This document shows, piece by piece, positions 32,026 to 34,484 of a stretch of 64,000 nucleotides of DNA. A model generated the notes under the pieces. That model was given only the letters and a program-made list of their open reading frames with translations, was not told the origin of the DNA and did no database searches. Source of the stretch: an uncultured Pelagibacteraceae bacterium (GTDB taxonomy: Bacteria; Pseudomonadota; Alphaproteobacteria; Pelagibacterales; Pelagibacteraceae); assembly GCA_902555275.1 (NCBI GenBank), contig CACDRY010000003.1:62001-126000 (forward strand), read 5' to 3'. Position 1 is the stretch's first letter, and each line of letters starts with the position of its first letter. A program made the position numbers and the translations under genes.

Positions 32026-33144
32026 ATGAATTTAGAAACCAACTCATTAGGATTTAATAAAAAACCGTCTGAAACTACTGTGGTGGTAGCCATGTCTGGA
32101 GGGGTAGACTCTTCAACAGTTGCTGGGATGATGAAGCAAGAAGGTTATAATGTAATTGGAATTACTTTAAAACTTTACAATGATGGCAAAGAAGTTGCTG
32201 CTTCAAAACAATGCTGCTCTGGTCAAGATATTATGGATGCAAAAAGAGTTGCACATAAATTAGATATTGAACATAAGATTTTATATTACCAAGATAAGTT
32301 TAAACAAGGTGTTATCGATAACTTCGTTGAAAGTTATTTAAAGGGGGAAACACCAATACCATGTGTACAATGTAATCAGACAGTTAAATTCAAAGATTTG
32401 TTTGAATTTTCAAAAGATTTAAATGCTGATGCGCTAATCACAGGTCACTATGTAAAAAGTTTAACTAAAGATAACTCAACGAATATGTATAGAGCTATTG
32501 ATGAAAATCGAGATCAAAGTTATTTTTTATTTAATACCACAAGAGAGCAATTAAATTATATTAGATTTCCGCTAGGCGGACTTCTTAAAGACAAAACAAG
32601 AGAAATTGCAAAAAATTTGAATTTGAATGTTGCTGATAAACCAGATAGTCAAGATATATGCTTTGTACCCAATGGAGATTATTCTTCAGTGATAAAAAAA
32701 TTTAAACCAGAATCGTACAAAAAAGGAAATATAAAAAATTTGGATGGTAAAGTTGTGGGAGTGCATGATGGAATAGTTAATTTTACTATTGGACAAAGAA
32801 AAGGAATTAAAGTTTCAAATGAAGAGCCATTTTACGTAATTAGAATTGATGCTGAAAAAAATGAAATCCACATAGGTCCTAAAGAAGAATTAGCAAGAAT
32901 TGATATTAATTTAAAAAACTCAAATATACTTACCAATAAAGAGGAATTTAATGAAAATATATTGGTTAAAGTCAGGTCTACTGGCAAGCTTTTAGATGCA
33001 AAAGTAAACATAGAAGATAACAATAATGTTAAAGTAAGTCTCCTAAAACCAGAATACGGAATATCTCCAGGGCAAGCTTGTGTATTTTACAAGAAAGACC
33101 AATTTGGTCATAAGGTTTTAGGTGGTGGTTGGATTAAAGATTAA
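32026..33144 (+). CDS. mnmA: tRNA-specific 2-thiouridylase MnmA
   Basis: A 372-residue enzyme. The PP-loop [15 protein letters not shown] (about 22-36) binds ATP. The catalytic cysteines are in [12 protein letters not shown] and [13 protein letters not shown], and GQACVFY lies in the C-terminal barrel. It places sulfur at U34 of Lys, Glu and Gln tRNAs. It is a single gene, divergent from the DUF3553-cysQ operon with 41 bases between starts. Confidence 0.95.
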
Positions 33145-33149
33145 AAATT

Positions 33150-33233
33150 TTATTTCTTTTTATTTTTTTTTCTTGCTCGTCTTTTTTTAGAGCCCATTTT
33201 TCTACGGCCCCTGTGTTTTTTTGGGTATCCCAT
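33150..33233 (-). CDS. Very small, highly basic protein (27 aa), ribosomal-protein-like
   Basis: A frame starting MGYPKKHRGRRKMGSKKR and ending in a Lys-rich tail (27 residues, 19 of them Lys, Arg or His). AAGGAG sits 5 bases before the ATG, one of the strongest ribosome binding sites in the window. The R-R-K-M...K-K-R-R core resembles short mS38/bS22-type ribosomal proteins, but that is only a resemblance. It lies between convergently placed mnmA and divergent metC-like genes. Confidence 0.65.
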   Translation of the reverse strand: MGYPKKHRGRRKMGSKKRRARKKNKKK

Positions 33234-33308
33234 AATCTCCTTAGTTTTACTATTTTATTGACTTATTTGGTGGATATAGCATTGTCCAAACAACATAGCA
33301 ATTTTTTT

Positions 33309-34484
33309 ATGAGCAATTCTTTTAAAACATTTTTAAAACATACTGCTAAAGATTTCCATAATCACTCAGTAAATCCACCAGTTGTAAGAGCATCTACAAT
33401 AATTTTTAAATCCATGAACGATATTAGAAAAACTCAGAATAAATATAAAAAAGATCCACGTGGAGGATATTTTGATTACGGAAGACAGGGCACTTCAACT
33501 ACGCACATTTTACAAAAAATACTTACAAAATTAGAAAAGTCTTATCATGTCTTTTTAACTCCTACAGGATTTGGATCTATTTTTTTAGCTATTTTTAGCG
33601 TTGTAAGACCAGGCGATGAAATTATAGTTGCTGATCCAGTTTACAATCCCACTAGAATTCTTACACAAAATTTTTTAAAAGAATTTAATATTAAAACTAC
33701 ATTTTATAATCCTCACGATTTAAATTCACTAAATAAAATAATCAATAAAAAAACTAAATTAATTTTTGTTGAAAATCCAGGAAGTAACTCATTTGAATTT
33801 CAGGATTTATCAAAAATAATATCAATAGCAAAAAAAAGAAAAGTTTTGACAGCAATTGACAATACTTGGGCAACTCCATATTTTTTTAAACCAATGAAAC
33901 TTGGTTTTGATATGTCAATTGTATCTGCCACTAAGTATTATTCAGGACATTCAGATGTAATGGGAGGGAGTTTAGCAGTTAATAAAAAAGTTTTTAAACT
34001 TGTAGAGAAAACTCAAAAAATAATTGGTTTGAGATTAGGTCCTGATGATGCATATTTAATAACAAGAGGTCTTAGGACCTTAGATGTAAGATTAGATAAA
34101 CATCAAGAAAATGCTAAAAAAGTCGCAGCCTTTTTATCAAAAAATAAAAAAGTAAAACTTTTATATCCATATTTGAAAGGGTCACTTAATTACAAATTAT
34201 GGAAAAAATATTACTCGGGTGCCTCTGGATTAATGGGTCTTAAAATTAAAACAAAAAATAAAAAATCTGTAATAAAGTTTGTTAATTCATTAAAATTGTT
34301 TGGTTATGGCTATAGCTGGGGAGGCTTTGAAAGTTTAGCATTACATCAAACTAAGGTAGAAAGAGGTAACAGGATTCACTCAGATATTAAAGATGATGAA
34401 ACAATTGTAAGGCTGCACGTTGGTCTCGAAGATCCAAAAGATTTAATTGAAGATTTGCGAAAATCGCTTAAATTCATTAAATGA
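33309..34484 (+). CDS. metC: Cystathionine beta-lyase-type PLP enzyme
   Basis: A 391-residue Cys/Met-metabolism PLP enzyme. The frame is open from 33213, but that part covers a small reverse gene and is unlike the family; ATG 33309 (MSNSFKTFLKHTAKDF) gives the usual length and the family's first conserved block VNPPVVRASTI. The PLP Lys is in SATKYYSGHSDVMGG, and FDYGRQGTSTTHILQ is the cofactor-phosphate region. It cleaves cystathionine to homocysteine. Related C-S lyase activities are possible. An MFS gene overlaps its stop (ATGA). Confidence 0.88.
   Translation: MSNSFKTFLKHTAKDFHNHSVNPPVVRASTIIFKSMNDIRKTQNKYKKDPRGGYFDYGRQGTSTTHILQKILTKLEKSYHVFLTPTGFGSIFLAIFSVVRPGDEIIVADPVYNPTRILTQNFLKEFNIKTTFYNPHDLNSLNKIINKKTKLIFVENPGSNSFEFQDLSKIISIAKKRKVLTAIDNTWATPYFFKPMKLGFDMSIVSATKYYSGHSDVMGGSLAVNKKVFKLVEKTQKIIGLRLGPDDAYLITRGLRTLDVRLDKHQENAKKVAAFLSKNKKVKLLYPYLKGSLNYKLWKKYYSGASGLMGLKIKTKNKKSVIKFVNSLKLFGYGYSWGGFESLALHQTKVERGNRIHSDIKDDETIVRLHVGLEDPKDLIEDLRKSLKFIK

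Follow-up and report, generated by a model that had tools for sequence, protein, structure and literature searches.

The described proteins that come closest to the peptide reported here are very small, basic ribosomal proteins. One of them, bTHX (PF17070, TIGR04560), binds RNA; the Thermus protein counts 27 residues including its methionine and ends in KKK. Another, bS22/mS38 (PF08213, NF047430), is known as bS22 in Mycobacterium, Cutibacterium, Flavobacterium and Borrelia, is partly helical, sits as a bent helix in the 16S h2/h27/h44/h45 pocket, and in the bS22 entries of the PDB measures 28-33 amino acids with about 60% lysine plus arginine. The Borrelia protein is described as tiny, with 61% lysine plus arginine, and as having been overlooked by annotation; it was the one ribosomal protein that mass spectrometry failed to pick up there, and the same report expects more such proteins (PMC10618245). 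An archaeal and eukaryotic protein, eL41/eS32 (PF05162), which has 25 residues and is an Arg/Lys helix, is described there as an analogue of bS22 (PMC10618245). Small host translation proteins such as bS21 and bL12 also occur as accessory genes of phages; virus-borne ribosomal proteins are described as enriched for loosely bound ones (bS21, bL12, bL9, bL31 and bL33), and bS21 has been found in a pelagiphage (PMC6375957).

We report here a minus-strand gene for the basic peptide MGYPKKHRGRRKMGSKKRRARKKNKKK in a stretch of 64,000 nucleotides from an uncultured Pelagibacteraceae bacterium (hereafter the window, meaning the whole stretch analysed). Its locus has the following features.

32026..33144, plus strand: mnmA (tRNA 2-thiouridylase), the convergent neighbour, linked to the peptide gene across the family
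33097..33109, minus strand: weak terminator-like hairpin from a consensus scan only, about 40 bases past the peptide stop, within the 3' end of mnmA
33150..33233, minus strand: gene of 27 codons plus stop for the basic peptide, from the ORF reading and family conservation
33237..33242, minus strand: AAGGAG, a Shine-Dalgarno-like site, 3 bases (ATT) ahead of the peptide ATG
33312..34484, plus strand: gene for a Cys/Met metabolism PLP enzyme (metC-like), the divergent neighbour, its start placed by homologue length

The reading frame opens with an ATG at 33233-33231 and closes with TAA. An unlisted basic peptide of 27 residues at exactly these positions was what the initial annotation had claimed, to which the strand has to be added; the AAGGAG that it saw 5 bases upstream is present, but the spacing to the ATG is 3 bases. 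It was right that so perfect a site is rare in the window: among 62 ORFs that do not overlap and have 110 aa or more, 2 show AAGGAG no more than 18 nt from their first ATG. Lysine and arginine make up 59% of the peptide, as compared to 32% in the runner-up small ORF of the window and at most 37% in first-order Markov sequences (n=15).

The decisive evidence for a real gene is conservation, read as pS against pN. Homologues (E <= 1) are present in 164 of the 197 genomes of the SAR11 family f1, spread over 13 of its 14 genera, and in 71 of the 77 that are at least 90% complete; the window's own genome has a single match. Each carrier has one copy, save one genome (8% contamination) with two, and the match in G160 is cut by a contig end. 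The 79 loci collected gave 78 full-length peptides (23 distinct), all started by ATG, and a comparison of 72 distinct nucleotide sequences gives a pS of 0.61 and a pN of 0.06, a ratio of 0.10. The peptide had initially been proposed as a missed gene, a proposal to be given up if the frame were not conserved in close relatives; the frame is conserved, and the proposal holds both in this family and in the second order described below. Length is exactly 27 amino acids in all 188 bacterial core-bearing loci collected, some genomes occurring twice among them via two collections. Identity to the window peptide within f1 is 81-100%, as against 57-80% for the adjacent MnmA among other loci compared. 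Because the frame is conserved and pN lies far below pS, we conclude that this is a conserved single-copy gene under strong selection and not a chance ORF.

Our literature search for the letters of the peptide motif found nothing, and a search for SAR11 ribosome structures found none on topic by title and abstract. Surveys of SAR11 intergenic regions place unannotated coding regions and sORFs in their supplementary tables (PMC2704228, PMC6429828), and the ORF may already stand, without a function, in one of those supplements.

Beyond this family the distribution is discontinuous. An order-wide search found the peptide in 85 of 147 genomes (a set sharing many genomes with the 197), and the matches listed are all from f1. 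The search of the Alphaproteobacteria that had been suggested returned homologues in f1, f25, f32 and f142: at E <= 0.1, 25 of the 385 genomes of the class matched, and 13 of these are convincing, matching residues 1-27 in full at E < 1e-9, namely five from f1, four from f25, three from f32 and one from f142. The other 12 (E >= 0.003) were judged to be chance matches, with 8 of their 13 places inspected. Families f32 and f142 belong to one order, which we take to be HIMB59, and group together in a 16S tree that has too few taxa and an AT-rich bias. In this second order 98 of the 120 genomes carry the peptide, with one copy each; those with a completeness of 90% or more number 20, and all of them have it. 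Most other Alphaproteobacteria sampled in the class search lack it, and a phylum sample of 299 genomes gave one match, the window's own genome.

Searching 29 genomes without the gene (18 from f1 and 11 from its sister family f2) with a profile found no peptide. When ten of the gene-less f1 genomes were checked for MnmA, nine had no match (E <= 1e-30) and in one it was cut by a contig end; the absences checked in f1 therefore track absence of the whole mnmA locus, which points to missing assembly or joint loss. The nine assemblies (G051, G069, G143, G256, G258, G274, G052, G058 and G002) have estimated completeness of 86-99%; a recurrent assembly gap or a joint loss could be involved. In f2, MnmA is present in 3 of the 4 genomes searched (49-51% identical) and the peptide was not found; since MnmA is kept there, f2 has no recognisable copy. 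Single copy and near-universality within the clade thus describe f1 and the second order, f2 being the exception. Missing from f2 and from most other Alphaproteobacteria sampled, the peptide is dispensable in general. As it is common to SAR11 and the second order and absent from sister f2, it also bears on their relationship, the membership of HIMB59 in SAR11 being disputed (PMC10308909).

Gene neighbourhoods vary. Most f1 loci link the peptide to mnmA, with upstream genes differing in some genera; in f32 it stands beside msrB and in f142 after a LysR-type gene (names by eye). Among the 30 selected loci laid out, no recognisable ribosomal protein gene lies beside it, and the absence of a fixed operon partner fits a stand-alone housekeeping gene. 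In f25 (L085, L087 and L088) a same-strand RpoH-like gene (name by eye) precedes the peptide gene by about 65 nt. Immediately downstream of the peptide gene, 16 of the 30 loci have a gene for an apparently membrane-bound protein of about 235 aa (L010:1591-2295 and equivalents), which is absent from the window.

The same core is carried by viruses. Scanning IMG/VR with the bacterial profile found 24 viral contigs that share the core MxYPKK[H/R]RGRRKxGSxxRR and have longer, variable, basic tails, and a profile including the phage members again found 24. A pattern freeing residue 7 gave 25 contigs, and one freeing residues 3-4 and the K/R at residue 5 gave 24; the sole contig gained by relaxing the pattern was L234, in which residue 7 is arginine (H7R). 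That relaxed patterns add one contig argues that the motif is close to fixed and not a search artefact. The phage peptides are 28-40 aa long over the 25 viral contigs, which span several unrelated phage types. Two of the 19-residue cores occur in identical form in phages and in bacteria, and phage codons 1-19 are under selection (pS 0.87, pN 0.11; 13 distinct sequences).

The phage contexts differ from type to type. In L212 and L217 the peptide gene sits in the capsid module, adjoining a GroES gene; the pelagiphages HTVC023P and HTVC027P have capsid proteins 66-68% identical to that of the L212 type. None of the six GenBank relatives of the L212 type examined carries the peptide, and we therefore regard it as a phage accessory gene. 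In L191, L216, L224, L225 and L226 the order is endonuclease I-like gene, peptide, HNH-like gene, followed by an integrase-like gene in 4 of the 5, L191 being too short to show one (L225 was checked against Pfam for these names; the genes of the other four were named by eye). A DNA polymerase-like gene lies near the peptide in L215 (read by eye), and L214 and L223 are alike in gene content. In L234, a viral contig of 91.6 kb, the peptide gene is immediately followed by a GapR-type gene (L234:926-1272; PF10073, E 8.5e-23). Five peptides compared with PHROGs gave no match, nor did tblastn against GenBank phages, where the low-complexity filter may hide the peptide.

Sixteen positions are invariant in the 19 bacterial members (M1, Y3, P4, K5, K6, H7, R8, G9, R10, R11, K12, G14, S15, R18, R19 and K25), and all of them except K25 hold when phage members are included (alignment A3, outside of which L234 stands). 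The invariant non-basic residues Y3, P4, G9, G14 and S15 point to specific contacts, beyond charge. An AlphaFold2 monomer model of a 35-aa phage homologue predicts coil over residues 1-14 and helix over residues 15-34 (mean pLDDT 83).

Because of its size, charge, fixed sequence, near-universality and carriage by phages taken together, the likeliest reading of the peptide is as a new rRNA-binding ribosomal microprotein, probably exchangeable and working like bS22, a proposal to which we give about an even chance. The invariant arm (residues 1-14, YPKKHRGRRKxG; the coil of the model) would thread into a structured rRNA pocket, and the helix from Ser15 would lie against a helix of the rRNA, much as in bS22, bTHX or eL41. 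The reason for phage carriage would be that a small surface protein can be swapped on the ribosomes of the host, a behaviour documented for the bS21 of phages, and the longer phage tails could add virus-specific contacts. Its carriage in unrelated phage genomes would parallel that of the virus-borne ribosomal proteins, with the difference that for the peptide a ribosomal role is one that we infer. Against a ribosomal role stand the lack of detectable homology to any ribosomal protein, the capacity of small basic peptides to bind DNA equally, the absence from f2 and a position that adjoins no ribosomal gene in any of the 30 loci. A wider version of the proposal, which we put forward tentatively and at rather less than even chances, is that the peptide represents an unrecognised ribosomal family of SAR11 and HIMB59, unrelated to bS22, of which phage lineages independently took up tailed forms that replace the host copy during infection, its sharing between SAR11 and HIMB59 being due either to phage-mediated transfer or to a shared derived trait.

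Whatever its role, this is a gene of 27 amino acids, overlooked by annotation, that is near letter-perfect in the most abundant bacteria of the ocean and in several viruses of theirs; its fixed length and near-invariant sequence make it directly testable. If ribosomal, it would add a component to SAR11 ribosomes and be a new example of phages carrying parts of the host translation machinery.

Alternatively, these bacteria with compact genomes might use the peptide on DNA or in the nucleoid, as a protamine-like micropeptide or alongside a nucleoid-associated protein, and their phages might have taken it up to manage DNA. The lysine and arginine content would suit this, as would the GapR-type DNA-binding neighbour in L234 and, in another phage type, the position between endonuclease I and an HNH nuclease; the near-invariant Y, P, G, G and S with their spacing nevertheless exceed what charge neutralisation needs, and the phage contexts vary to the point of including the L212 capsid module with GroES, and we consider the idea unlikely. 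Lower still do we rate a non-ribosomal RNA-binding peptide, for instance an arginine-rich antiterminator, an RNA chaperone or an RNP subunit (of RNase P, SRP or tmRNA). Helices bearing an arginine-rich motif are a classical way to bind RNA, and such peptides are common in phages; the phage-homologue model would place such a motif on a helix here. No Rfam family was found at the peptide locus, however, and near-universal presence in single copy in the hosts suggests a housekeeping function and not a regulator of the phage type.

The initial annotation saw in the R-R-K-M...K-K-R-R core a resemblance to mS38/bS22, and a divergent bS22/mS38 proper, with the same ancestry and the same pocket at 16S h44/h45/h27, would be consistent with the length, the lysine and arginine content, the R-R-K-M core and the precedent of Borrelia bS22, likewise described as unannotated (PMC10618245). 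Pfam gave no match for any of the 19 bacterial members, the profiles PF08213, PF17070 and PF05162 all missing them; NCBIfam gave none for the window peptide, and the PDB none by single sequence or by profile. This silence means little, since Fjo and Bbu bS22, both proven by structure, go unmatched in Pfam and NCBIfam too, although THX and eL41 are found by their Pfam profiles. Similarity was also tested by column permutation keeping composition, which gave z-scores of -1.4 to +1.2 overall: -1.4 to +0.74 against Fjo, Bbu and Msm bS22 and human mS38, -1.2 to +1.1 against THX, and -1.2 to +0.9 against eL41. Positive controls reached 6.3 (mS38 against Msm bS22) and 11 (Fjo against Bbu), but Fjo against Msm bS22 fails as well (z 0.9), a mark of the limited power of the test. 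With scores no better than composition and no Pfam match, the suggested resemblance gains no support: homology to mS38/bS22 is unsupported at the sequence level, where the likeness reads as an analogy in size and charge. Moreover, PF08213 passes its cut-off in none of 190 class genomes, nothing in the PDB sequences of bS22 clearly corresponds to the invariant G9 and G14, and the peptide differs from bS22/mS38 in its invariant YP and G14-S15 and in a core carried by phages. We regard common ancestry with bS22 as improbable, more so than either of the two alternatives above.

That the ORF is a leader peptide or a chance frame without protein function, as its shortness and its absence from the annotation might suggest, has next to no probability: it is convergent with mnmA and so leads no gene in the window, its amino acids are under strong purifying selection, its lysine and arginine content lies far above the Markov controls, and the frame persists where the neighbourhood changes and where phages carry it.

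The Shine-Dalgarno site of the window gene is weak or absent in many homologues and is a non-conserved feature. Such motifs are rare in the window, 4 of the same 62 ORFs (110 aa or more) having the shorter AGGAG at most 18 nt from the first ATG. Loss of the anti-Shine-Dalgarno was rejected as an explanation, CCTCC being intact in all 12 of the 16S genes read at the 3' end, of which 8 come from carriers of the peptide and 4 from non-carriers. The 16S gene ends in GGATTACCTCC in 4 of the 5 f1 genes read (L250, L253, L256 and L258), and in GGATCACCTCC in seven non-f1 genes and the one other f1 gene (L257).
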